The position numbers and the translations under genes were made by a program. A stretch of 64,000 bases of DNA from Alphaproteobacteria bacterium (GTDB lineage Bacteria > Pseudomonadota > Alphaproteobacteria > Puniceispirillales > Puniceispirillaceae): contig JADHOL010000010.1 of NCBI GenBank assembly GCA_016779005.1, positions 1 to 64,000 on the forward strand, in the 5' to 3' direction. Numbering within the stretch: position 1 is the stretch's first letter; the number at the start of each line of letters is the position of its first letter. Positions 31,274 through 46,398 of the stretch are shown piece by piece. Below the pieces are notes generated by a model. It searched no databases. It was not told where the DNA came from and was given only the letters and a program-made list of their open reading frames with translations.

Positions 31274-31295
31274 TTAACCAAAGATTAACCAAAGA
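31274..31295 (+). repeat. 11-bp tandem repeat between two stop codons
   Basis: TTAACCAAAGA occurs twice in tandem with a partial third TTAA. It fills the spacer between the SGNH-hydrolase stop and the convergent lptB stop (31296-31298). Confidence 0.85.
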
Positions 31296-32084
31296 TTAAA
31301 AAGTGAAGCGTTTACCCAAATATACTTCACGAACCCCTTGATGCTCAACAACCTGTTCTGGGGTGCCTTCCATTAATAAAGCGCCATCATGCAAGATATA
31401 GGCTCTATCTACGATATCTAATGTTTCCCTGACATTATGGTCTGTAATAAGCACGCCTAATCCACTCTCTTTTAGATGCGTTATAAGGTCTCTTACTTCA
31501 CCAATGGCAATTGGGTCGATACCTGCTAATGGTTCGTCAAGAAGGAGGAATGTTGGTCTTGCCGCTAGCGCACGCGCTATTTCAAGTCTGCGCCTCTCAC
31601 CACCAGAGAGATTAATAGCAGCTGTATTACGTAAATGAGCAATGCTAAATTCAGCCATTAACTCCTCTAGCATACCATCGCGAACATCTTTATCACTCTC
31701 AACAATTTCTAATACGGAGCGTATATTCTGAGCAACGCTTAATCCTCTAAAAACGCTTGATTCTTGCGGAAGATAGCCAAGTCCTAATCGTGCTCGATAA
31801 AACATCGGGGAATGGGTAACTTCAAGACCGTCCAGAAATACACGGCCTTCATCTGCTGCTAGTAAACCACATAGCATATAAAAAGTAGTTGTTTTTCCAG
31901 CCCCGTTTGGGCCAAGAAGCCCAATTGCCTCGCCACGCTGAACACCAAAACTTACATTGCGGACAACGCGACGTTTATTGATATATTTGCCAAGACCATC
32001 GGCAACTAGCCCAATATTGCTGTCGATCAATTTCAAGTGACTTGACCAACTATTTGAGTTTTCAGCTGTTTCTTCGTTTGTCAT
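31296..32084 (-). CDS. lptB: LPS export ABC transporter ATP-binding protein LptB
   Basis: 262 aa. Walker A GPNGAGKTT, Q-loop LPQESSVF, signature LSGGERRRLEIARAL, Walker B FLLLDEPLAGIDP and H-loop ITDHNVRETL; these are the LptB-specific forms. It powers extraction of LPS from the inner membrane with LptFG. There is an N-terminal extension of about 25 residues. In most alphaproteobacteria rpoN, hpf and ptsN follow; here the next gene is convergent and unrelated. Confidence 0.96.
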   Translation of the reverse strand: MTNEETAENSNSWSSHLKLIDSNIGLVADGLGKYINKRRVVRNVSFGVQRGEAIGLLGPNGAGKTTTFYMLCGLLAADEGRVFLDGLEVTHSPMFYRARLGLGYLPQESSVFRGLSVAQNIRSVLEIVESDKDVRDGMLEELMAEFSIAHLRNTAAINLSGGERRRLEIARALAARPTFLLLDEPLAGIDPIAIGEVRDLITHLKESGLGVLITDHNVRETLDIVDRAYILHDGALLMEGTPEQVVEHQGVREVYLGKRFTF

Positions 32085-33771: not shown

Positions 33772-34383
33772 CTAGTGATGAAAAATATCTAAATCTTCAA
33801 ACCCGCCTAAATCCAGCATTATTCGATGCGTTAGAAAATCAAAGCAATGATGGGCTAAATTCAACCGGCCCTCTTTTTTGAGTTGCTCATTTAATTTGGC
33901 TTTTAATCTATGCAAATATAACACATCACTAGCGGCATATTTTTTCTGAGCCTCGCTTAGTATCTCAGCGCCCCAGTCAGATGATTGTTGTTGTTTTGAC
34001 AATTCAATCGATAGTAATTCAGAACATAAATCTTTTAATCCGTGCCTGTCGGTATAGGTTCTAGATAATTTTGATGCAATTTTTGTGCAATAAATAGGTC
34101 CTGAGACTTCGCAGACATCGCGGGTTAAAACTGCTAAATCAAATCTGGCAAAATGAAATAGCTTCTCCACAGTCTTGTCCTGCAGTAATGCTTCTAGGTG
34201 AGGGCTTTTATGCTTTTCAGCAGAGATTTGCACCAGATGCGCCTCTCCATTGCCATCAGATAATTGAACAAGACAAAGCCTATCTCTTGTTAATTTTAAT
34301 CCCCTTGTTTCTGTATCAATCGCAACCGATTTGCCAAAGCTAATATCGCTTGGTAGGTCATGTTGATGAAGAAATATACTCAT
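33772..34383 (-). CDS. RNase D-like 3'-5' exonuclease (DEDDy)
   Basis: 203 aa, exonuclease domain only, without the HRDC domains of E. coli RNase D. Exo I is VAIDTETRGL, Exo II lies at LFHFARFDLAVL and Exo III at YAASDVLYLHRL, so all four acidic residues and the Tyr are present. Short members of this class are widespread in alphaproteobacteria, next to lptC. It probably trims RNA 3' ends. Its start overlaps the nitroreductase stop by 4 bp. Confidence 0.9.
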   Translation of the reverse strand: MSIFLHQHDLPSDISFGKSVAIDTETRGLKLTRDRLCLVQLSDGNGEAHLVQISAEKHKSPHLEALLQDKTVEKLFHFARFDLAVLTRDVCEVSGPIYCTKIASKLSRTYTDRHGLKDLCSELLSIELSKQQQSSDWGAEILSEAQKKYAASDVLYLHRLKAKLNEQLKKEGRLNLAHHCFDFLTHRIMLDLGGFEDLDIFHH

Positions 34384-34982
34384 TTTAATCGTTGGCCTTC
34401 CTTAATATCTTGTCCATATCTCAATGCGATTTGAGATATATCAGGGCGATTACGCTCGTTTGGTTGTTTGGTTTTTGCGCCAATATAAATGAAGCCTGCA
34501 ATTTTGTCAGTATCAGGATTCCCGCCAAGTGTTGTTATCATTTTATCATTGTAAGAATACCAATGCGTGACCCACTGCGCGCCATATCCAAGGGCAAGCG
34601 CGGCTGTGAGTAAATTCTGACAAACGGCACCAGCAGATAAATGCATCTCCCACTGGGGAATCTTTGGATGCATAACAGGTTTTGAGATCACGCACAAAAC
34701 AGCAGAGGCTTTTGCAAACCTGCTTTCTTCAAACTCTAGCATAGCTTCTGTTGCATCTGGATTTATCCGCGCAAATTCATCTCGCAAACAAGACTTGCCG
34801 AGTTGTAAGCGTTGCTCGCCTGATATGACAATAATCTGCCATGGCGTTAACATGCCATGATCTGGAACTCTTGTTCCACATTCAAGTATGGAAGATAGGT
34901 CACGCTCTGGCAGTGGGAGCGGGTTTAAGTTGCGGATCATAACAGAGCGACGTTGCTTTAAAAATGAAATAATAGGATTCAT
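34380..34982 (-). CDS. Nitroreductase family protein
   Basis: 200-aa flavoenzyme of the YdjA-type short group: RRSVMIRNL and RVPDHGMLTPWQIIVI at the N-terminus, LSAGAVCQNLLTAALALGYGAQWVT in the middle and GFIYIGAKTKQPNERNRPD at the end. It should bind FMN and reduce nitro- or quinone-type substrates with NAD(P)H. Physiological substrate unknown. Translationally coupled to the RNase D-like gene. Confidence 0.92.
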   Translation of the reverse strand: MNPIISFLKQRRSVMIRNLNPLPLPERDLSSILECGTRVPDHGMLTPWQIIVISGEQRLQLGKSCLRDEFARINPDATEAMLEFEESRFAKASAVLCVISKPVMHPKIPQWEMHLSAGAVCQNLLTAALALGYGAQWVTHWYSYNDKMITTLGGNPDTDKIAGFIYIGAKTKQPNERNRPDISQIALRYGQDIKEGQRLK

Positions 34983-35084
34983 AGAGTCTGCTTGCGTTTG
35001 AATTAGATTAAAGAGTGTAGCATAACGGCGTCTATTTTAATACCCCAGTAATAGGACAAACATCGTCTTAAAATATTCAGATTT

Positions 35085-35125
35085 TTTATCCAAAGTTCTT
35101 ATCCAAATTTCTTATCTGGCTTTTA
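35085..35125 (+). repeat. 13-bp degenerate tandem repeat upstream of irr
   Basis: Three to four units of the type TTCTTATCCAAAT (TTTATCCAAAG, TTCTTATCCAAAT, TTCTTATCTGGCT, then TTTATCTGC) in the 286-bp divergent spacer between the nitroreductase gene and irr. A TTGACA hexamer at 35211-35216 may belong to an irr promoter, but the -10 is unclear. Confidence 0.65.
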
Positions 35126-35257
35126 TCTGCAACATCCATATAGGTTGCATCAAGCTGGCCTACAAACAGAGAAGAATTAGAAAACGCTTTTATGCATATA
35201 ATCAAATATCTTGACAATCTTAATGCTTCAAATCAAGTTTGAGAGGTGTAAATAATA

Positions 35258-35302
35258 ATGTTGGGCTTATGTCGGGTGATGCTAAAATCATTGAGGTGCT
35301 GA
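35258..35302 (+). other. Possible upstream ORF overlapping the irr start (14 codons)
   Basis: An ATG at 35258, nine bases after GAGAGGTG, opens a 14-codon frame ending in TGA at 35302. It is out of frame with irr and overlaps its first codons. It has the best ribosome site in the region, so either it is translated as a leader or the irr start is unusual. Confidence 0.35.
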
Positions 35303-35679
35303 AAGATGCTGGATTGCGGCCAACAAAGCAGCGGATATGTGTTGGACGTTTATTATTTACGGGCAAACATCAGCATGTAAGCGCAGATAGGTTGCAACTC
35401 CAAATACGAGAATTAGGGCAAAAAATGGCCCTAGCGACTATCTATAATTGTCTTCACCAGTTTCACAAAGCAGGGTTACTGAAAAAAGTAAATGCGGTAA
35501 ATGATGTGATTATGTTTGATACTAACTTATCCTATCATCATCATTTTTTGAATGTGGATACAGGGGAGCTTACCGATATCAACAAAGAAGCTGTTTCGAT
35601 TGCAGGGTTGCCGTCACTTCCAGATGGGTTTGAGGCTTTATCAATGGAACTAACAATTCGGGTTAAACCTCAAATTTAG
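35269..35679 (+). CDS. irr: Fur-family iron/heme response regulator, Irr-type
   Basis: 136 aa from ATG 35269 (TTG at 35239 is an open alternative). The winged-helix part (GLRPTKQRICVGRLLF; ALATIYNCLHQFHKAGLL) and the dimer domain with FDTNLSYHHHF are typical of alphaproteobacterial Irr, whose HHH (residues 90-92) binds heme or metal. It lacks the Cys pairs of zinc-structural Fur/PerR. Irr represses or activates iron-dependent genes through ICE boxes. It stands just before katG, and an ICE-like palindrome is found there. Confidence 0.85.
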   Translation: MSGDAKIIEVLKDAGLRPTKQRICVGRLLFTGKHQHVSADRLQLQIRELGQKMALATIYNCLHQFHKAGLLKKVNAVNDVIMFDTNLSYHHHFLNVDTGELTDINKEAVSIAGLPSLPDGFEALSMELTIRVKPQI

Positions 35680-35750
35680 CGATTGGCTTTCTGCCTTAAC
35701 CGTTTAATTGTTTTTTTCTTAAAGTTTTTTATAAGGTGATAAAGGATTAC

Positions 35751-35767
35751 TTTAAAACCATTCTAAA
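35751..35767 (+). promoter_or_regulatory. ICE/Irr-box-like palindrome before katG
   Basis: TTTAAAA-CCA-TTCTAAA is a 7+3+7 inverted repeat with one mismatch (a perfect one would be TTTAGAA/TTCTAAA). It matches the shape of the rhizobial iron control element as I recall it. It ends 4 bp before the TTGACA at 35772. Confidence 0.5.
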
Positions 35768-35771
35768 CCGA

Positions 35772-38022
<2,251 letters not shown>

Positions 38023-38043
38023 TCAATCCGAATATTAAAGATT

Positions 38044-38071
38044 AAAAAACGCCCTTTAGGCCGTTTTTTTT
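38044..38071 (+). terminator. Intrinsic terminator of katG
   Basis: AAAAAACG-C-CC / GG-C-CGTTTTTTT hairpin with one internal mismatch and a TTTA loop, ending in seven T. It begins about 22 bp after the katG stop and faces the convergent gapA gene. Confidence 0.8.
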
Positions 38072-38100
38072 ATTACTGATTGTGAATAGGGGGAAGGCGT

Positions 38101-39099
38101 TCATCCCATACAAGTTACCGTATCAAGCATTCTGTTAGAAAAACCCCATTCATTATCATACCAGCTGAAAATGCGGGTCATTCCATCTGGCATTACCCGT
38201 GTCTGGTCAATATGGGCTATCGAAGATGCTGGGTGATGATTGAAATCTGTTGATACCAACTCACGTTCTGTAAAATCTAAAACGCCTTTTAATTCGCCAT
38301 TAGCGGCAATTTTAATAAATTGATTTATTTCATCAGCAGATGTTTGCTTAATAGGTTCAAACACAAAATCAACCGCAGAAACATTTGGTGTTGGAACACG
38401 AATAGCAACCCCGTCAAGCTTGCCGTTTAGCTCTGGTAAAACAAGTCCTACAGCCTTTGCGGCGCCTGTTGTGGTGGGGATCATGTTTAAGGCAGCCGCA
38501 CGCGAGCGATATAAATCCTTATGTTCTGTGTCCAGAATACGTTGGTCGCTTGTGTAGCTGTGAATAGTGGTCATGAAACCTTGTTTAATACCACATGTAT
38601 TATGCAGAATATGCGCAATTGGCGCTAGGCAATTGGTTGTGCAAGACGCATTTGAGATGATTTTATGTTCTGGTGATATAAGGGTGTGATTTACACCATA
38701 TACCACGGTTAAATCAGCTCCTTTGGAAGGCGCAGAAACAAGCACTTTTTTGGCGCCTCCTCTTAGATGCACAGCAGCTTTATCAGCATCGGTAAAAATG
38801 CCAGTACATTCCATAACAACATCTACCCCAAGCGCGCCCCAATCAAGAGCCTCTGGGTCACGTTCGCTCAAAAAGCGAACCTTGTTGCCTGCGACATGCA
38901 TCATATCGCCCTCTATAGTGACAGGTGTTGGCAACCTGCCATGCACGGAATCAAATTCCAGAAGATATGCAGAGTCAGAAAGAGACGGGATTGTATTTAC
39001 CGCAATAATTTCCACATCACTTCGTGGATTTTCAATAAGTGCTCTAAATACATTTCTGCCTATCCGGCCAAATCCATTAATTGCTACTTTGACGGTCAT
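38101..39099 (-). CDS. gap: Glyceraldehyde-3-phosphate dehydrogenase, type I
   Basis: 332 aa. Rossmann GFGRIGRNVFRA, catalytic Cys153 (SNASCTTNCLAP), SYTSDQRILD, phosphate-binding AAALNMIPTTTGAAKA and SWYDNEWGFSNRM. It interconverts glyceraldehyde-3-phosphate and 1,3-bisphosphoglycerate. The usual Asp that recognises the NAD ribose (in the VND motif) is Thr36 here (AVNTIPS), which suggests use of NADP or dual specificity, as in gluconeogenic GapB. It stands alone, not with pgk or tkt. Confidence 0.96.
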   Translation of the reverse strand: MTVKVAINGFGRIGRNVFRALIENPRSDVEIIAVNTIPSLSDSAYLLEFDSVHGRLPTPVTIEGDMMHVAGNKVRFLSERDPEALDWGALGVDVVMECTGIFTDADKAAVHLRGGAKKVLVSAPSKGADLTVVYGVNHTLISPEHKIISNASCTTNCLAPIAHILHNTCGIKQGFMTTIHSYTSDQRILDTEHKDLYRSRAAALNMIPTTTGAAKAVGLVLPELNGKLDGVAIRVPTPNVSAVDFVFEPIKQTSADEINQFIKIAANGELKGVLDFTERELVSTDFNHHPASSIAHIDQTRVMPDGMTRIFSWYDNEWGFSNRMLDTVTCMG

Positions 39100-39255
39100 A
39101 TCTTTCCCCTATCTGGTTTCTAAAAGAGTGTTAAATGTTTCATCCAGAAGTGTCATAGCAAATTAACAGCCATTCGCGAACCCACAAAAATGAACAAATT
39201 AGGCCTCTTATTCTGATAGCACCTATTTGAAACTTTTCACGAAAAGAATAAATGC

Positions 39256-39294
39256 AAAAAGGGGGTGGCTTGGAGGATAGGGACCACCCCTTTT
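39256..39294 (-). terminator. Probable terminator downstream of the copper-chaperone gene
   Basis: A stem of 11-12 bp (AAAAGGGG(G)TGG / CCACCCCTTTT, one bulged G) with a 15-nt loop; on the minus strand it ends in CCCCCTTTTT. It lies about 150 bp after the PCu(A)C stop. The rest of the 342-bp spacer (39100-39441) shows no gene I can support, so a short 3' RNA ending here is possible. Confidence 0.6.
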
Positions 39295-39441
39295 ATGTGC
39301 ACAATATGTTTGGGGAGAAATTGTGTCTTAATACAAGTTTTAACCTGCATCATTTTAATACTAAAAAAAGCTGCACCTAAATAGTGCTAATAATTGCTAT
39401 TGGCGATGCAATTTTTGCACAGGTGATAATATCTATGAAGT

Positions 39442-39921
39442 TTAATGATTATGTTTTTTTGAACTTGGATTATCACTAGCCGGAGCAGATTTAACAGTCG
39501 CTGGTACTATCACAGAACCCAGATTTTTAAATGTTAAAGTTAATTCGAGCGTTTGCATCGGGATTATTTGCATATTAAGCTTCATAAACATGAGATGAAA
39601 ACTGCCTGGCTTTAGATATATGCTCTCGCCAGCCGGGATAATTAATCCATCTGGTATCGGCCTCATTTTCATTACCTCGCCATCCATCTTCATCTGGTGG
39701 ATTTCTCCTTTAGCAGCAAAAGAGCTAGATACGGACAGTAATATCTCATCCGTATCACCGAGATTTTCAATTGTAAGGTACCCTGCGGTTGTTTTGTGAT
39801 TTGGAGGGGTGTCTTTTATCCATACGTTATCAATTATAATATGGTTAAATTTTAGGGGTTCTGCATATGCGCTAGCAACACTCCCAATTATCAAGGTGAT
39901 AAATAGTATAAATACCCGCAT
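39442..39921 (-). CDS. Periplasmic copper chaperone PCu(A)C
   Basis: 159 aa from ATG 39921, which has AGGAAA upstream; 39954 is an alternative start. A signal peptide (MRVFILFITLIIGSVASAYA) is followed by the PCu(A)C fold with copper ligands His75 (EIHQM), Met86, His109 and Met111 (GSFHLMFM), close to the H-x10-M-x21-H-x-M pattern. It delivers Cu(I) to the CuA site of cytochrome oxidase. The tail ends in a His-containing KKHNH. No sco or cox gene is adjacent. Confidence 0.9.
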   Translation of the reverse strand: MRVFILFITLIIGSVASAYAEPLKFNHIIIDNVWIKDTPPNHKTTAGYLTIENLGDTDEILLSVSSSFAAKGEIHQMKMDGEVMKMRPIPDGLIIPAGESIYLKPGSFHLMFMKLNMQIIPMQTLELTLTFKNLGSVIVPATVKSAPASDNPSSKKHNH

Positions 39922-40094
39922 CAATAGTTTCCTAATATCATTTTTGACAAACACCTTAGAATAGATGGTTTAGGATTATCAAATTATAAATATAGAATGC
40001 GTCAATAATGCCCATAGATATGCATAATAGTGTGCAAAAATAGAAGTTCTAAAAACGCTTTTGGGATGGTTTTCTGATTAGATTAGAAAGTCTT

Positions 40095-40190
40095 GGCTGG
40101 TTCAGTAACCAGCCTAGAAGGTTAGACCTTATGCCGATAAGACATAGTTTTCCTGTAGAGGCTCCCCCAGAGTACCTACAGCTTAATTGA
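40095..40190. other. Cluster of three inverted repeats (possible structured RNA)
   Basis: A perfect 8-bp hairpin GGCTGGTT-CAGT-AACCAGCC (40095-40114), then AAGGT-TAG-ACCTT (40118-40130), then CTGTAG/CTACAG arms enclosing a C-rich loop (about 40153-40181). They fill the 3' side of the small membrane-protein gene and may form its 3' UTR or a separate RNA. No T-run follows, so they are not a plain terminator. Confidence 0.45.
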
Positions 40191-40305
40191 ACAAGCTAAA
40201 TGCTGCGACTAATAAAATAATTACTGCAATCGCAAATAAATATCCGTTTCCTGTATTTCTGCGTGAGTAGTCTGCTGAAATTGCGTTTGTTTTATATGGG
40301 AACAT
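40183..40305 (-). CDS. Small single-pass membrane protein, 40 aa
   Basis: I do not recognise the family. The frame runs MFPYKTNAISADYSRRNTGN, then a 17-residue hydrophobic segment (YLFAIAVIILLVAAFSLFN), and stops. GAGGAGA lies 8 nt before the ATG, a strong ribosome site. The upstream 40 bp holds a palindrome around a TATAGT. The length, topology and initiation signals support a real gene. It may be membrane-complex associated; that is inference only. Confidence 0.7.
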   Translation of the reverse strand: MFPYKTNAISADYSRRNTGNGYLFAIAVIILLVAAFSLFN

Positions 40306-40325
40306 TGCCGGTCTCCTCTCTATGT

Positions 40326-40344
40326 CTTTCCACTATACGGAAAG
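40326..40344 (-). promoter_or_regulatory. Palindrome around a -10-like box before the 40-aa gene
   Basis: CTTTCC-N7-GGAAAG with a TATAGT (minus strand) nested in the centre, 21 bp before the ATG at 40305. It could be an operator covering a -10. A further AT palindrome (AAAAAATTAA/TTAATTTTTT) lies at 40362-40388. Confidence 0.4.
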
Positions 40345-40460
40345 AATTAGAAAAAAGGATCAAAAAATTAAAAAAACCTTAATTTTTTTTTCGCTCTTCC
40401 AAATTTGAGTCCTAAATGTAAGGACTTTGGCCTTAATGGGCGCGTCCTACCTATCTCGTT

Positions 40461-40745
40461 CTACATATCGATAGATAAGCTTGTATCGCCCGCAATGACA
40501 AAGGATGCGTTTTTAAAAGAGGGTGATCCAAGAAACCCTTCTGCATTATTACTAAACGCATAAGGCTCTTTCGGAATGCCAACGAAATTTTTATCTAGTT
40601 TATTTTTCAAATTTACGTCAATATAAACGCCAATAACATAAATGCCATCTGATTTTCGCGAAACCGCAAGCGCTATTTTTGAGGGGCGTTTAGGCGCGCT
40701 AGACTTGACGCATCCGCGCGCTTTTGTCAGAGGGCGCACAGGCAT
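40461..40745 (-). pseudogene. Truncated DUF2141 protein gene
   Basis: The last 70 residues match the DUF2141 pattern: GIYVIGVYIDVNLKNKLDKNF, then GIPKEPYAFSNNAEG, PSFKNASFVIAGDTSLSI. Intact members are 130-160 aa with a signal peptide and a beta-rich N-terminal part. Here the frame is closed by a TAA about 8 codons before the only ATG, the first 25 residues do not look like the family, there is no ribosome site, and no signal peptide is present. The 5' part ends where the suyA upstream region begins. I call it a remnant, function unknown. Confidence 0.65.
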
Positions 40746-40760
40746 TTGAAGAGTTACAAA

Positions 40761-40777
40761 ATGGGCTTGTTACCCAT
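40761..40777 (+). promoter_or_regulatory. Possible operator upstream of suyA
   Basis: ATGGG-N7-CCCAT inverted repeat about 42 bp before the suyA start, in the 73-bp spacer. No regulator gene is adjacent and no clean -35/-10 pair is seen. Confidence 0.3.
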
Positions 40778-40818
40778 CCAAAAATACTATTGAAACCCTG
40801 ACGATAGGAGAGATTAAA

Positions 40819-41109
40819 ATGTCAGAAATACCCCATTTATTGGTTCACGATCATGAAGACACTGTTGGTGTCGTCGTTGTTGAGGGGCTAGAGGCTGGAA
40901 CAGATATGCTTGTTTGTATAACACATGATAATTCGACCTTTCGGTTAAAAGCAGAGCAATCAGTTCCTATCGGTCACAAGATATCTCTTAGAGATCACCA
41001 GGTAGGCGACACTGTCTATAAATATGGTGAGGATATTGGCAGAATCATACAAGATTGTGCAAAAGGTCATCATTTACATACACATAATTGCAAAACCAAG
41101 CGTTGGTAG
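40819..41109 (+). CDS. suyA: Probable (R)-sulfolactate sulfo-lyase, small subunit (UxaA N-terminal/SAF family)
   Basis: 96-aa SAF-domain protein with the [15 protein letters not shown] start and the [20 protein letters not shown] and [14 protein letters not shown] motifs. SuyAB splits (R)-3-sulfolactate into pyruvate and sulfite. The same fold forms the N-terminal part of altronate/galactarate dehydratases. I favour sulfolactate because the two parts are separate genes and the next genes encode a ComC-family dehydrogenase and a YeiH/CuyZ-type exporter. AGGAGA precedes the ATG; suyB starts 10 bp after the stop. Confidence 0.72.
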
Positions 41110-41119
41110 GGAGCTAGAA

Positions 41120-42298
41120 ATGACTGATTTTTCAAATGTAATGGTTCAAGGTTATCGACGTGATAATGGTCACATTGGTGTTCGCAATCATGTATTGATC
41201 CTGCCGTTGGATGATATTTCAAATGCGGCATGCGAAGCTGTTGCCAATAATATCAAAGGGACATTGGCGATACCACATGCATATGGCCGCTTGCAATTTG
41301 GGGAAGACCTAGAGGTGCATTTTCGAACCTTAATAGGCACGGGGAGTAATGCAAATGTAGCCGCTGTTGTGGTTATTGGAATTGAGCCTGAATGGACCCA
41401 GCGTGTTGTAGATGGCATAGCAGAAACAGGAAAACCTGTTTCTGGATTATCAATTGAACAAAATGGTGATCTGAAAACCATTATGGATGCCTCTCATATA
41501 GCAAAGCAATATGTGCATTATGCAACCGAGCTTCAGCGAGAGGATTGCCCTCTTTGTGAACTTTGGATTTCAACTAAATGTGGGGAAAGTGATACTACCA
41601 CAGGTCTTGGCTCCTGCCCGGCAGTTGGTAATATGTATGATAAGCTTTTACCAATTGGTATTACAGGCTTCTTTGGTGAAACCTCTGAGATCACAGGGGC
41701 AGAGCATATTTGTAAACACAGAGCCATCAATGAAGAGGTTGGTGAGCGCTGGTATAAAATGTGGAAAGCCTATCAAGATGATGTCATTTTTGCCCATCAA
41801 ACAGATGATCTCTCTGATAGTCAGCCAACCAAAGGCAATATCTTGGGTGGATTAACGACTATTGAGGAGAAAGCACTTGGTAATCTTGAGAAAATTGGCC
41901 GAACATCCAGATATATTGACATTCTGGGCCCTGCGGAGAAACCTCAATCTGGCGCGGGATTATATTTTATGGATAGCTCTTCGGCAGCTGCAGAATGTGT
42001 AACATTAATGGCTGCAGGTGGGGCTGTCATTCATACATTTCCAACCGGACAAGGTAATGTGATAGGCAACCCCATTGTACCTGTCATTAAAATCACAGCG
42101 AATCCAAGAACCATCCGCACGATGAGTGAGCATGTTGATGTGGATGTATCAGGTATTTTAAGACGTGAAACCACAATTGACGAAGCAGGCGATCAGCTGA
42201 TAGATATGATCATACGCACAGCAAATGGTCGAAATACAGCTGCGGAAGCACTTGGCCATCGAGAATTTTCAATGACCAAATTATATCGATCAGCTTAG
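41120..42298 (+). CDS. suyB: Probable (R)-sulfolactate sulfo-lyase, large subunit (UxaA C-terminal family)
   Basis: 392 aa from the ATG at 41120 (GGGAGC upstream); the open frame begins earlier at 41024 inside suyA but that start is not supported. UxaA C-terminal motifs are clear: [46 protein letters not shown], and [24 protein letters not shown]. The conserved Cys residues probably bind an iron centre. With suyA it forms the lyase. An altronate/galactarate dehydratase-like role is the main alternative. Confidence 0.72.
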
Positions 42299-42300
42299 AA

Positions 42301-42335
42301 AAGGAGGGCGGAGGAAATCTCCGCCTCAATCTTTG
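42301..42335 (+). promoter_or_regulatory. Shine-Dalgarno, hairpin and TTG start of comC
   Basis: AAGGAG (42301-42306) is followed directly by a perfect 7-bp hairpin GGCGGAG-GAAAT-CTCCGCC (42307-42325), then 7 nt and TTG at 42333. Folding the hairpin brings the ribosome site to a normal 7-nt spacing from the start. No T-run follows the hairpin, so it is not a terminator. Confidence 0.6.
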
Positions 42336-43322
42336 GAACATATTTTCATAACCACCCAAGAAGCGATGCAACGCGTCCGTGATGCGTTTCAATCTCACGG
42401 GATGAGCACACACAATGCTGAGATAATTGCGCATTATTTAGTGTTGGCAGAAACCGATGGCCAATTGGGACATGGTCTCTCTAGAGTGAAGAGTTATTTG
42501 GCACAAATTAAAAGTGGAAAAGTAAATATTAGGGCTTCTATCAGCTCAGAATTTCAGGGAAAGGGCTGGCTTGCGCTAGATGCAGATCATGGATTTGCAT
42601 TTCCTGCATTAGACCATGTTTATTTGCAGGCAATGCCTCTGGTTCGCGAAAATGGATCTCTTCTGGTTACGATTAATAAATCTCACCATGCGGGCGTTCT
42701 AGCTCATCATGTTGAGCGCTATGCAGAGCAGGGCGTGGTTGCGCTTATGTTTTCGAATACCCCGGCTGCGATGGCGCCTTGGGGGGGCTCTACCCCTATC
42801 TTTGGAACCAATCCCATTGCATTTTCCTGCCCAAGGGATACGGGCTCACCATTTGTGATTGACCTTTCTCTTGCAAAAGTAGCGCGCGGTAAGGTTATGA
42901 GAGCAAAGACAGAAGGTAAAAAAATTCCAGATGACTGGGCTGTTGATCCAGATGGTATTGCTACAACAGACCCCGAACAAGCATTAAAAGGGGCAATGTT
43001 GCCAATGGGGGGTGCCAAGGGCGCTGCTCTTGCATTGATGGTTGAATTAATAACAGCAGGGCTAGCAGGGGCACATTATGGATTTCAGGCTTCTTCATTC
43101 TTGGATACAAAAAGCTCAGAGCCGAATGTTGCTCAGACACTTATTCTTATCGCACCGCCTGCTAAACGAATAGCTCATTTTGAGACGTTATTTTCGGCTA
43201 TTTTAGCTCAGCCAGATACACGGCTTCCAGGCATAAACCGGCTTAAAAAGCGAGCAGATGTAGCAAAAAATGGATTGAAAATCCTATTGGATGACTACAC
43301 CTATATTTTATCGCAAGCATAA
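42333..43322 (+). CDS. comC: Ldh/malate dehydrogenase type 2 family oxidoreductase, probable (R)-sulfolactate dehydrogenase
   Basis: 329 aa. Family motifs: ADTDGQLGHGLSRVKSY-like N-terminus (AETDGQLGHGLSRV), INKSHHAGVLAHHVE, FSNTPAAMAPWGG, FGTNPIAFSCP and MGGAKGAALALMVELI. Members use NAD(P)H to reduce 2-oxo acids; ComC reduces sulfopyruvate to (R)-sulfolactate, the SuyAB substrate. Assignment rests on its place between suyB and the exporter. The start is TTG 42333 with a hairpin-bridged ribosome site, or ATG 42366 with a weak AAGAAG site. Confidence 0.75.
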   Translation: MEHIFITTQEAMQRVRDAFQSHGMSTHNAEIIAHYLVLAETDGQLGHGLSRVKSYLAQIKSGKVNIRASISSEFQGKGWLALDADHGFAFPALDHVYLQAMPLVRENGSLLVTINKSHHAGVLAHHVERYAEQGVVALMFSNTPAAMAPWGGSTPIFGTNPIAFSCPRDTGSPFVIDLSLAKVARGKVMRAKTEGKKIPDDWAVDPDGIATTDPEQALKGAMLPMGGAKGAALALMVELITAGLAGAHYGFQASSFLDTKSSEPNVAQTLILIAPPAKRIAHFETLFSAILAQPDTRLPGINRLKKRADVAKNGLKILLDDYTYILSQA

Positions 43323-43324
43323 TA

Positions 43325-44374
43325 ATGACTGGCCAGTTTCTAAACCGATATTATAGTCAGTTTTGCCATATAGTGCATCGTTATTATCCAGGGGTAATAG
43401 TGGTAGGAATTTTGGCGCTCGCAGCACAATTTATTTCTGATTATTATGGTGCCCCGACAATGCTAATGGCGTTGCTTTTTGGGATGGCCTTGAACTTCTT
43501 GTCAAAAGAGAAGCGATGTGTTGAGGGTATAAATTTCACAGCGCAGAAAGTTCTTCGCGTTGGCGTTTGCCTGTTAGGGGCGCGAATAAGTTTCGATATG
43601 ATTTCGGCTGTTGGTCTGGTGAATGTGGCAATTACGGTAATGGCGGTATTAGCAACCATAGGGTTTGGTATTGCTATGTCTAAATGGTTTAATATTGACA
43701 GGTATTTTGCGTTCTTAACTTCTGGTTCAGTTGCTATTTGTGGGGCTTCTGCAGCTTTGGCAATCGCTGCAATAATGCCGAAACATAAAAAGCGTGACGA
43801 GGAGCTTATATTTACGGTAGCTGGTGTTACCATCCTATCCACATTCGCAATGATATTATATCCCATTTTAGGTCAAAAAATCGGCCTGTCAGGAGACGCG
43901 CTAGGTGTATTTTTAGGTGCAACTATTCACGATGTGGCTCAAGTTGTGGGGGCAGGATATTCTGTAGATGAGCCAACTGGCGATATCGCAACAATTATTA
44001 AATTGCTGCGTGTTGCAATGCTGGCGCCAGTTGTGGTTATTGCTGGATTGATTATTCGCTTTAAAATAGGTGGCAAGAAAATAAGTGGCAGGAAAATTGA
44101 TAATAGGGGCGAGCGTGAGAGCCCGCCCATTCTACCTGCATTTGTTTTGGGGTTCATTGTTATTCTACTCGCTAACTCGCTTGGTATATTGCCGCACATT
44201 ATAAAGGAGGGGTTTCAGATAACCTCGCGTTGGTTTTTGGTAATGGCAATTGCAGCAGTTGGAATGAAAATAGATTTGAGTGAATTGCGACATATTGGAA
44301 AGTCTGCTTTTTTTCTTATTATCGCGGAAACGATATTTGTTGCTGTGTTCGTTACGAGTATTTTGTTTGTTTAA
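43325..44374 (+). CDS. YeiH/UPF0324 family putative sulfate/sulfite exporter (CuyZ/SuyZ-like)
   Basis: 349-aa membrane protein with about 9-10 helices. Family features include GAPTMLMALLFGMALNF, RVGVCLLGARISF, SVAICGASAALAIAA and GATIHDVAQVVGAGYSV. In taurine/sulfolactate/cysteate degraders a homologue is placed beside the desulfonating enzyme and is thought to export sulfite or sulfate. It starts 2 bp after the comC stop, so is in the operon. Residues around 248-262 carry a duplicated 15-bp unit (IGGKK-ISGRK). Confidence 0.85.
   Translation: MTGQFLNRYYSQFCHIVHRYYPGVIVVGILALAAQFISDYYGAPTMLMALLFGMALNFLSKEKRCVEGINFTAQKVLRVGVCLLGARISFDMISAVGLVNVAITVMAVLATIGFGIAMSKWFNIDRYFAFLTSGSVAICGASAALAIAAIMPKHKKRDEELIFTVAGVTILSTFAMILYPILGQKIGLSGDALGVFLGATIHDVAQVVGAGYSVDEPTGDIATIIKLLRVAMLAPVVVIAGLIIRFKIGGKKISGRKIDNRGERESPPILPAFVLGFIVILLANSLGILPHIIKEGFQITSRWFLVMAIAAVGMKIDLSELRHIGKSAFFLIIAETIFVAVFVTSILFV
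44066..44095 (+). repeat. In-frame 15-bp tandem duplication in the exporter gene
   Basis: ATAGGTGGCAAGAAA is followed by ATAAGTGGCAGGAAA and a third, drifted copy; it encodes IGGKK, ISGRK, IDNRG in a cytoplasmic loop between membrane segments. Confidence 0.8.
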
Positions 44375-44532
44375 ACCTATCTGGTAAACTCATCTGATAA
44401 TTGCATCTTTGGTGCCTTAGATAAACATATTGTTTATATAATGAGCAAAACTTATTTGCACAGATAGCAAGCTATGATGAGGCTTTCCTGTCGGAGGACA
44501 ATCTGTTACTTATCTCGTTATTATCTAACGCC

Positions 44533-44591
44533 CTGTTATTTGTTGTGCGTTATTTAACGTGCAGTTATTTAAAGTGCTGTTATTTATAGTG
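44533..44591 (+). repeat. 14-15-bp tandem repeat, 4 units
   Basis: CTGTTATTTGTTGTG, CGTTATTTAACGTG, CAGTTATTTAAAGTG and CTGTTATTTATAGTG in tandem, ending 26 bp before the start of the NDUFA9-like gene. The remainder of the spacer from 44375 is AT-rich without other features. Confidence 0.9.
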
Positions 44592-44617
44592 AGAATTTTG
44601 AGTAAATAGGAATGAAC

Positions 44618-45565
44618 ATGCAACTGCGAAACAAAACCGTCTGCATAATTGGTGGCTCTGGATTTATTGGAAGAGCATTAGTTGAAAAATTAGCGCGTGC
44701 AGGGGCACGTATCTCTGTTCTTACCCGAAATGCGGTGCGCTCAAAAAATCTAAAACCAGTTGGAGATATTGGCCAGATAACAGTTATGTCTGGTGATGCG
44801 CTTCTAGATGATGATTTGGCAAGAGCTATTCAATCGGCTGATTATGTTGTTAATTTGGTTGGTATTTTTCACCCATCTGGCAAACAGAATTTTGAAAACG
44901 CGCAGGCCGAATTACCGCAAAGAATAGCACAAATCGCAGAGCAGGCAGAGGTTACAAAAATTGTTCAGATATCCGCGATTGGGGCAGATCTCAAGGCTGC
45001 TAGTACATATTACAGAACCAAAGCCGAGGGTGAGAGAAGCCTGCTACGTCTTGCGCCAAATAGTACAATTTTGCGCCCCTCCATTGTTTTTGGACCAGGA
45101 GATGGTTTTTTCGATAGGTTTGCAAGAATGGCTATGATTGCACCTGCCCTGCCTTTATTAGCTGGGGGGAATACCAAATTTCAACCTGTTTTTGTTGGCG
45201 ATGTTGCTGAGTCTATTATTTATTGTCTTAGTAACAGCCAAACAGATGGGCAAATTTATGAGCTAGGCGGCCCCTCTATTTATAGTTTTAAAGAATTATT
45301 AGTCTATATGCTCTCTGCGATTGGCAAGAAGAGAGCTTTAATTCCTGTTCCAATTTTTGCGATGCAGGTTCCAGCAGCAATGGCATCTATCCTGCCTAAT
45401 CCGCCAATAACGCGGGATCAGTTGCGGATGTTAGATACTGATAATATTGTAAATGAGAATATGCTGGATATCACTTCATTTGGCATCACGCCGCAGCCTA
45501 TTGAAGCACATGTTCCAAATTACCTGTCTTGTTATCGACAGGGCGGTATTTTTGCATCAAGCTAG
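44618..45565 (+). CDS. NDUFA9-like NAD(P)-binding epimerase-family protein
   Basis: 315 aa from the second ATG (44618), which has AGGA at 6 nt; 44612 is also open. Rossmann motif IIGGSGFIGRALVEKL, then YYRTKAEGERSLL with the Tyr-x3-Lys pair, and LRPSIVFGPGDGFF. The family is related to the complex I accessory subunit NDUFA9. It may bind NADPH and stabilise complex I or quinone synthesis; not proven. Convergent with uppP, overlapping 4 bp. Confidence 0.88.
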   Translation: MQLRNKTVCIIGGSGFIGRALVEKLARAGARISVLTRNAVRSKNLKPVGDIGQITVMSGDALLDDDLARAIQSADYVVNLVGIFHPSGKQNFENAQAELPQRIAQIAEQAEVTKIVQISAIGADLKAASTYYRTKAEGERSLLRLAPNSTILRPSIVFGPGDGFFDRFARMAMIAPALPLLAGGNTKFQPVFVGDVAESIIYCLSNSQTDGQIYELGGPSIYSFKELLVYMLSAIGKKRALIPVPIFAMQVPAAMASILPNPPITRDQLRMLDTDNIVNENMLDITSFGITPQPIEAHVPNYLSCYRQGGIFASS

Positions 45566-46398
45566 AAGCTAATGATAAGCAGCACAAGGCCAAGTGCAAA
45601 CCGGTAATATACAAATAGATTAAAATTCGCGCGTCCAAGCCATTTCATCATGCCATGAATTGCCCCTAATGCAATAATGCAGGAGAATACGGCAACATAT
45701 AATGCAGCTGCGCCTACGACAATATCTTCTTGGCGGATAAGTGTTACGACTTGCAGACACCCTGCCGCAATAATGACAGGGATTGATAATAATAATGAGA
45801 AGCGTGCAGCACTCAAACGCTCAAAGCCAAGATATCGTGCCATTGTCATTGTAACGCCGCTTCGCGAGGTGCCAGGGATTAATGCAAGCATCTGCACAAG
45901 CCCAATAAATAAAGCTTGTTTCAATCTCATTTCGCTTAATGTGTGCTCAGAGGGCGATGTTTTGTCTGAATGCCATAGGAAAATAGCAAAGATAATATTT
46001 GAAATGGCAACAGTTTGCAAGAGCCGAAGCATATCAGGCTCAAAAAGCGAAACCAAAAACCCAGCAATAATAACCGGAATAGTCGCAATTATAAGCATTT
46101 TAATCATCATTAGGGATGGCGCATCAATCAGGATATTAGCGTTAGGCCTTAATGACTTCAAAGCAGTATTTCGGAGTGCCAAAGTCATTTTAATTAAATC
46201 AGAACGCACATAAATCATCACCGCTATCAGGGTTCCAATATGAGCTGCAACATCAATAGATACCCCATGGTCACTCCGATTCGTAATAGAGGGCACTAAA
46301 ACAAGATGGCCAGATGAGGATACAGGCAGAAATTCTGTTATGCCTTGAACCAAAGCAAGTAACAGGTAATAAGAAAAATCAGAAAAAGAAAAAGCCAT
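45562..46398 (-). CDS. uppP: Undecaprenyl-diphosphate phosphatase (BacA/UppP)
   Basis: About 278-aa membrane protein with the two catalytic motifs, QGITEFLPVSSSGHLVL near the N-terminus and PGTSRSGVTMTMAR near residue 180. It recycles undecaprenyl diphosphate for peptidoglycan and other envelope polymers. The start is ATG 46398; a TTG three codons upstream (46407) is in frame. It is close to the NDUFA9-like gene as in many alphaproteobacteria. Confidence 0.95.
   Translation of the reverse strand: MAFSFSDFSYYLLLALVQGITEFLPVSSSGHLVLVPSITNRSDHGVSIDVAAHIGTLIAVMIYVRSDLIKMTLALRNTALKSLRPNANILIDAPSLMMIKMLIIATIPVIIAGFLVSLFEPDMLRLLQTVAISNIIFAIFLWHSDKTSPSEHTLSEMRLKQALFIGLVQMLALIPGTSRSGVTMTMARYLGFERLSAARFSLLLSIPVIIAAGCLQVVTLIRQEDIVVGAAALYVAVFSCIIALGAIHGMMKWLGRANFNLFVYYRFALGLVLLIISF

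Follow-up and report, generated by a model that had tools for sequence, protein, structure and literature searches.

A 40-codon gene for a probable single-pass membrane protein in a SAR116 genus, with a shared N-terminus and a strong hairpin that is lost in the closest relative

Introduction

What is one to make of an ATG frame of only 40 codons, with a palindrome in front and inverted repeats behind: is it a gene, and what could its product do? The frame resides in the draft genome of an alphaproteobacterium of the SAR116 cluster (G000; 1.97 Mb, 48 contigs); the taxonomy listing places this cluster in Puniceispirillales. The stretch of DNA that was analysed as a whole, 64 kb in length, is here called the window. 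An earlier note, made from the letters of this stretch, had located the locus with correct coordinates and had proposed a short gene for a membrane protein within a discrete, regulated transcript with structured flanks. As will be seen, the gene fared considerably better than the transcript.

The reading frame and its predicted product

The frame extends from 40183 to 40305 on the minus strand and encodes MFPYKTNAISADYSRRNTGNGYLFAIAVIILLVAAFSLFN; it appears in the ORF listing, and hydropathy, a structural model, codon conservation and a shared N-terminus bear on it. A Shine-Dalgarno sequence, AGGAG (40313-40317, minus strand), read from the sequence, lies 7 nt 5' of the ATG, which bears out the strong ribosome site of the earlier note. 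The length of the frame is uninformative, since frames of this size are common here: the ORF listing has 105 of at least 30 aa overlapping 34000-46000. The case for a gene therefore has to be made by conservation.

The 40-mer consists of a polar N-terminus with K5, R15 and R16, followed by a hydrophobic helix at about residues 21-39. The best 19-residue hydropathy mean is 2.64, for residues 21-39, and the predicted structure has a helix at residues 21-40 with a pLDDT of 90-93 (about 60 for the earlier residues), so that the hydrophobic C-terminal segment that had been claimed is indeed there. Methionine occurs at the start only; cysteine and histidine are absent. Judged by these features of the sequence, the product is most likely a single-pass (bitopic) inner-membrane protein, and apparently a lineage-specific one. 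Searches of Pfam, NCBIfam and PHROGs gave nothing significant, the top match being an unnamed PHROG at E 0.085, and 50,697 phage records contained no match. In viral contigs a pattern search gave five stretches, none of which was confirmed, and a phage origin was rejected. A narrow search of the literature on SAR116 small proteins found nothing on the subject, which does not imply absence from print.

Codon conservation in the closest relative

The closest relative, G006, is 92.8% identical to the window across 4467 aligned bases. Its contig C12 ends inside the frame, and the comparison covers the region downstream, the last 22 codons of the ortholog and the stop. These 69 common coding bases contain no insertion or deletion, and the 22 codons are kept in frame. 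The 17 differences, the TAA/TAG change of the stop included, fall on first, second and third codon positions 1, 4 and 12 times, respectively (third positions thus accounting for 12/17), and pN/pS is 0.20 over 22 codons in this one genome pair. When the changes were placed at random, as many silent ones were reached by 11 of 3851 stop-free placements, a further 1149 draws that created a stop having been excluded. Six residues are replaced in G006 (G21V, Y22F, A25V, V28F, L31F and S37I); all belong to the hydrophobic stretch, and all are apolar in G006.

Taken together, the comparison is good evidence that the frame is translated, and it comes from a single genome pair and roughly half of the gene. 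At the level of codons, the C-terminal half of the 40-mer is under coding selection, as tested on 22 codons of that pair. With the N-terminus that is shared within the genus (see below), this conservation supports the short gene for a membrane protein of the earlier note, and we consider 40183-40305, with high confidence, a real coding gene.

The MFPYK family

The N-terminus MFPYK(S/T)NA and the spacer in front of the start are met again in further genes of this SAR116 genus, on different tails: in proteins of 43-95 aa and in FG-GAP proteins of 623-626 aa. The exact degenerate DNA pattern for ATG-Phe-Pro-Tyr-Lys-x-Asn-Ala was found at four places in 3 of 61 genomes, all of this genus, and a reversed control gave none. 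With two mismatches allowed, eight matches turned up in 6 of the 10 genus genomes, against five for the control; two of the eight are frames stopping within 20 codons and were counted as noise. Within codons 1-9, third positions account for 4/6 of the differences from the window in the copy on contig C30 of the same genome (G000:C30), for 3/5 in G005 and for 5/7 in G008.

Besides the 40-aa window frame, the family comprises G000:C30 (95 aa), G005 (43 aa), G008 (52 aa), a frame from a possible TTG start in G006:C245, and two long proteins: that of G003 (626 aa from ATG), in which Pfam recognises FG-GAP repeats, and that of G007 (623 aa from ATG), which is 93% identical to it. The start spacer of the window, GACCGGCA (40306-40313, minus strand), lies before the ATG. 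In the form GACYGGCW it is common to the window, G000:C30, G005, G008 and G007, while G003 has the one-base variant GAGTGGCT; counting the window and this variant, 6 of the 8 loci compared have a spacer of this type, and it is absent from G006:C245 and G002. Between spacer and ATG there are four extra bases in G005 and two in G008. Among six aligned members M1, F2, Y4, K5 and A8 are invariant, all N-terminal and none in the helix.

How far does the similarity reach? With a profile of the family (A2), 6 of the 10 genus genomes gave matches at E <= 1.2e-15, seven altogether; only one of these, G006:C245 (E 1.2e-15), is new, the other six being the rows from which the profile was built. The full-length window protein, used as a single sequence, matched the copies of G000:C30 and G005 with E values of 0.217 and 0.0499, respectively; further full-length values were 0.026 in a small local search and, with candidate stretches as the sole reference, 8e-5 and 1e-4. 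G002 has a copy that aligns from residue 2 to residue 40 of the 40-mer, in a frame that lacks a proper start and contains a stop; this copy has apparently lost start and frame, and the gene thus seems dispensable in G002. The profile had no match in four of the 10 genus genomes, G002 among them, two of the four having a completeness of just 64% and 73%. A search of 126 further genomes of the order brought up no convincing relative; four of them gave matches at 0.006-0.009, which begin at profile position 7 or beyond and were counted as noise. A class sample of 385 genomes gave, at E <= 1e-4, a match in G000 itself only, and no convincing relative in the other 384, some of which overlap the order set.

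The window frame has what characterises the family, an MFPYK(S/T)NA N-terminus followed by one hydrophobic helix, and also the start spacer. By its sequence it probably belongs to the MFPYK family. Our confidence is lowered by the weak full-length matches to other members, so that what supports membership is the N-terminal block, together with the start spacer and the layout that the members have in common. The FG-GAP protein of G003 shares 52% identity over 44 residues with the copy of G000:C30. Of 136 genomes of the order, three have its FG-GAP part at E <= 1e-20, namely G003, G007 and, as a weaker match, one of another genus; apart from the FG-GAP repeats, Pfam returned one sub-threshold match for the G003 protein.

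Some further observations may be added. In several MFPYK genes (L017, L018, L019, L020 and L021) a GGGGA of the leader is able to pair with codons 2-4 around the start. The expected number of pairs is 5.6-7.7 in four family genes and 3.5 in a fifth (0.0 in the window, 0.16 in G006:C245). Against 300 shuffled leaders the stem is clear in G008 (1/300), whereas shuffled leaders did as well in 25, 40, 42 and 78 cases for the other four. A stem between leader and codons 2-4 that controls translation in these other family genes was dropped as a candidate, the stem being clearly better than those of shuffled leaders in G008 only. Near MFPYK genes of two genomes, proteins of 433 aa (L017:3340-4641) and 431 aa (L020:2189-3484) match phrog_4756; to our reading, some of their residues resemble a diverged family A DNA polymerase, and the 431-aa protein has distant matches (about 25%) in five Aeromonas phage records. 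In the window itself, a 322-aa frame (828-1974) that we read as integrase-like adjoins a tRNA-Arg(CCG), as in an integrated element.

Hairpins and transcript signals

The downstream inverted repeats of the earlier note are present as predicted stem-loops in the window: the 96 nt downstream fold with z = -2.69, a folding matched by 2 of 200 shuffles. For the longer predicted mRNA the advantage over shuffles is weak (z = -1.83; 8/200). All predicted stem-loops belong to the minus strand, and their pairs fare differently in G006. Stem-loop 1 (40153-40181) has 3 of 11 pairs broken there, and stem-loops 2 and 2b (40119-40146) have 3 of 10 broken; an alternative stem, CTTAT-N4-ATAAG (40128-40141), is kept. 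Stem-loop 3 (40091-40118) is the strongest of the hairpins, with the core GGCTGGTT-ACTG-AACCAGCC at 40095-40114, and it was not scored as a terminator. Seven of its 11 pairs are broken in G006, all seven in the core of eight. In total, 13 of the 32 pairs of the window are broken and 19 survive, three of these via two-sided changes. The downstream region of G006 has a z of +1.20, and 179 of 200 shuffles fold at least as well. Pairing was compared in two sequences, the window and G006, from which two-sided changes cannot be weighed. A conserved hairpin device was rejected for the strong hairpin on account of the 7 of 8 broken core pairs and of a G006 sequence that folds like its shuffles.

Perfect inverted repeats are frequent in this DNA. 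With arms of at least 6 and loops of 3-12 bases, nested ones counted separately, the 64 kb contain 269. Perfect arms of at least 7 bp with at least 4 G/C are found at 21 distinct places (25 rows), the GGCTGGTT hairpin among them. A promoter scan of 39900-40820 yielded two sites, against 2.7 in shuffles; both are on the minus strand (40620-40648 and 40024-40053), and neither is at the frame. A terminator scan of the same region found none. At gathering score, Rfam recognised in the window two tRNAs only, none of them in the region of the frame, and a permissive scan of 39960-40460 gave seven matches, all under the gathering scores; a known RNA element was accordingly rejected.

Upstream of the gene, the palindrome around a -10-like box that had been reported is a perfect dyad, TCTTTCC-N7-GGAAAGA, at 40325-40345 (minus strand, read from the sequence), with TATAGT in its centre; it is a candidate operator. 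The exact dyad has a single copy in the window and is absent from 100 of 100 shuffles, a test that was chosen after the dyad had been seen. Forty-five nt before TATAGT starts a TTAA-N7-TTAA box (40368-40382, strand unspecified), which we take, as a candidate, to be a CtrA-type box. The window has eight such sites, those at 31274-31299 and 40368-40382 included, against 3.1 expected, and 1 of 100 shuffles is as high; they may be a CtrA-type regulon.

The discrete, regulated transcript with structured flanks is therefore not supported: its strongest hairpin is lost in G006, and 39900-40820 showed no promoter at the gene and no terminator. The earlier note had named missing conservation of the pairing in close relatives as what would refute it, and on that criterion the hairpins fail in G006, the one relative that covers the downstream region. 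Hairpins and upstream dyad are best explained as regulatory sequence, either at species level or of an ordinary kind, rather than as a conserved RNA device.

Neighbouring genes

The downstream neighbour is, by family match, a gene for a copper chaperone, PCu(A)C (PF04314; 39442-39954, minus strand), for which we read the ATG at 39921 as a likelier start. In eight of the 10 genus genomes a PCu(A)C gene was recognised. Apart from the window and G006, four of them (G001, G003, G005 and G009) cover the 900 bases that precede it, and in none of the four is there such a frame; only weakly hydrophobic frames (mean 1.73-1.75) are seen there, in G001 and G009. A conserved partner gene was thus not found among the genomes covering that region. 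On the upstream side a DUF2141 reading frame (40461-40745, minus strand) matches profile positions 32-107 of 112, its start being missing or unrecognised. In G002 a tRNA-Ser(GCT) adjoins the stretch matching the DUF2141 region, and in G006 a different sequence does so (L076, L077). The partial DUF2141 frame and these differing junctions imply that the small gene sits at a rearrangement-prone junction.

Proposed role

The best explanation, to which we give an even chance, is a genuine 40-aa bitopic inner-membrane protein of the SAR116 genus, signal-anchor-like in build, that works via a cytoplasmic N-terminal motif. The charged end of a membrane protein stays cytoplasmic according to the positive-inside rule. 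With its positive charges before the helix, the 40-mer would have its N-terminus in the cytoplasm and its C-terminus at the periplasmic face, and it may be described as an uncleaved signal-anchor peptide. Within the genus the N-terminus plus helix stands almost alone, in proteins of 43-52 aa, or precedes apparently exported tails, in the 95-aa protein and in the FG-GAP proteins of 623 and 626 aa. To serve as a plain signal anchor, a protein would not need a conserved octapeptide at its N-terminus, from which we infer that the motif contacts a shared component. The conserved cytoplasmic motif would then be the working part of the 40-mer and would touch something common to the family members. 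Like other small bacterial proteins with a single helix, the 40-mer may bind, via its helix or N-terminus, to some larger component of the membrane or of export and modulate it; by analogy, we give such a modulator slightly less than an even chance.

In its manner of working the 40-mer would belong with the large class of bacterial small proteins that have one helix. MgrB, as described in PMC8404706, is a membrane protein of 47 aa that inhibits PhoQ. Regulators of this kind resemble the 40-mer in being membrane proteins of 40-50 aa made from their own gene; they differ in that the 40-mer is without a known kinase or transporter partner, and the likeness is one of design, with no sequence relation claimed. 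Autotransporters, according to PMC2805444, have exceptionally long signal sequences with domains of their own on exported proteins, and the extended signal peptide region is reminiscent of the long N-terminal sequence seen here. The FG-GAP relative in G003, however, shows no type V beta-barrel translocator in Pfam, and several MFPYK members consist of N-region and helix and little more. A further comparison is with the FG-GAP proteins of G003 and G007, which share N-terminal block and start spacer with the window frame; the latter, in contrast, has no FG-GAP domain and ends right after the helix.

One may go further and see in MFPYK(S/T)NAFH plus helix a module for sorting or docking that is specific to this lineage. 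The octapeptide would be recognised by a dedicated factor of the genus, located in cytoplasm or membrane, the module would have been shuffled before unrelated exported tails, and the stand-alone copies of 40-52 aa would serve as ligands or competitors. This extension we consider improbable.

Alternative explanations

Could the 40-mer simply be a leftover? An orphan signal-anchor would have remained when a larger family gene lost its exported tail or had it replaced; the MFPYK module would be the long N-region of a signal peptide, and the 40-mer would have no separate function. The recurrence of N-terminus and helix at the beginning of the 95-aa protein and the FG-GAP proteins is consistent with such an origin, and so is the leader sequence common to G000:C30, G003, G007 and G008. 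Selection on the C-terminal half, i.e., the 22 codons and the stop position kept in G006 with coding bias, argues however against a functionless remnant. Further, the G002 copy aligns to residues 2-40 of the 40-mer where the FG-GAP protein matches nothing, and no tail of the FG-GAP or the 95-aa type was found downstream of the window frame. An orphan anchor thus has some chance, but is unlikely.

Of course, a short hydrophobic peptide also calls to mind a type I toxin, which depolarises the membrane and is restrained by antisense RNA and mRNA structure. In PMC8309996, fewer than 60 aa and one helix are named as common features of such toxins, and with its single predicted membrane helix the 40-mer conforms to both, as do TisB and others. 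TimP, 38 aa long and with an uncleaved signal-like sequence according to PMC7667032, is a close analogue in design. The related copies in several genomes, their narrow distribution with apparent decay in one genome, and the well-folding downstream RNA of the window would suit a toxin, too. The cationic residues of type I toxins, however, are generally in the C-terminal domain according to PMC8309996, whereas those of the 40-mer lie on the N-side of the helix. An antisense partner was not found: the promoter scan of 39900-40820 shows no plus-strand site, and on either strand of 37000-43500 no complement to the leader is longer than 13 nt, a length that 13 and 15 of the 30 shuffled leaders attain as well. 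The downstream folding is lost in G006, and the N-terminus is also carried by the FG-GAP proteins of 623-626 aa, which suggests targeting rather than killing. We therefore regard a toxin as quite unlikely.

A third possibility is a copper-responsive small membrane protein: the dyad would be a CueR/HmrR operator, and the protein would work with the adjacent PCu(A)C chaperone, whose gene lies downstream. The published CueR signal, as given in PMC1526738, is ACCTTCCC-(5)-TGGAAGGT, and by our count the window dyad agrees with it at 11 of 16 positions. CueR itself is encoded in the genome (TIGR02044, 155.4 bits against a curated cut-off of 147.4). A looser form of the dyad occurs at three places in the 10 genus genomes; the two outside the window are the same site in G005 (G005:C13:36186-36204, L080) and G009 (G009:C15:22475-22493, L081). 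There TTGACC-19 bp-TATATA surrounds CCTTCC-N7-GGAAAG, a layout of the CueR type, before a gene for a CopC-CusF fusion, the domains of which were checked in G005 only. This copper-promoter layout made a CueR operator worth testing for the window dyad. CueR, however, requires that the dyad sit within a promoter whose spacer is 19 bp long (PMC1526738), and the -35/19 bp/-10 frame that is present in G005 is missing at the window, where the hexamers flanking the dyad, as read from the sequence, misfit the CueR frame on both strands. The looser pattern is as frequent as its reversed control (3 vs 3), the linkage to PCu(A)C is not conserved, and the 40-mer has neither Cys nor His, nor Met beyond the start. 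A CueR operator was accordingly rejected for lack of promoter geometry, enrichment and PCu(A)C linkage, and the copper reading as a whole is very improbable. Independently, at L017 (2182-2577 and 1174-2122) a CueR gene is seen beside DUF4396 and a gene that we read as cytochrome-c-like, and the second MFPYK gene of that genome is about 2.7 kb away.

That the frame is no gene at all but a chance intergenic ORF, as its commonplace length and the empty searches of Pfam, NCBIfam and PHROGs might suggest, is hardly credible in view of the codon-position bias and pN/pS of 0.20 in G006 and of an N-terminus and ribosome-site spacer common to other genes.

Significance

The striking hairpins around this small frame teach that such structures need not be conserved. 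What the locus adds to an uncultured marine lineage is a conserved small protein that is missing from three family libraries (Pfam, NCBIfam and PHROGs). A further hint is that stand-alone micropeptides and a 620-aa FG-GAP protein make use of one and the same N-terminal module. If this module were a true sorting tag, it would be of wider interest; at present, the finding is a modest one.
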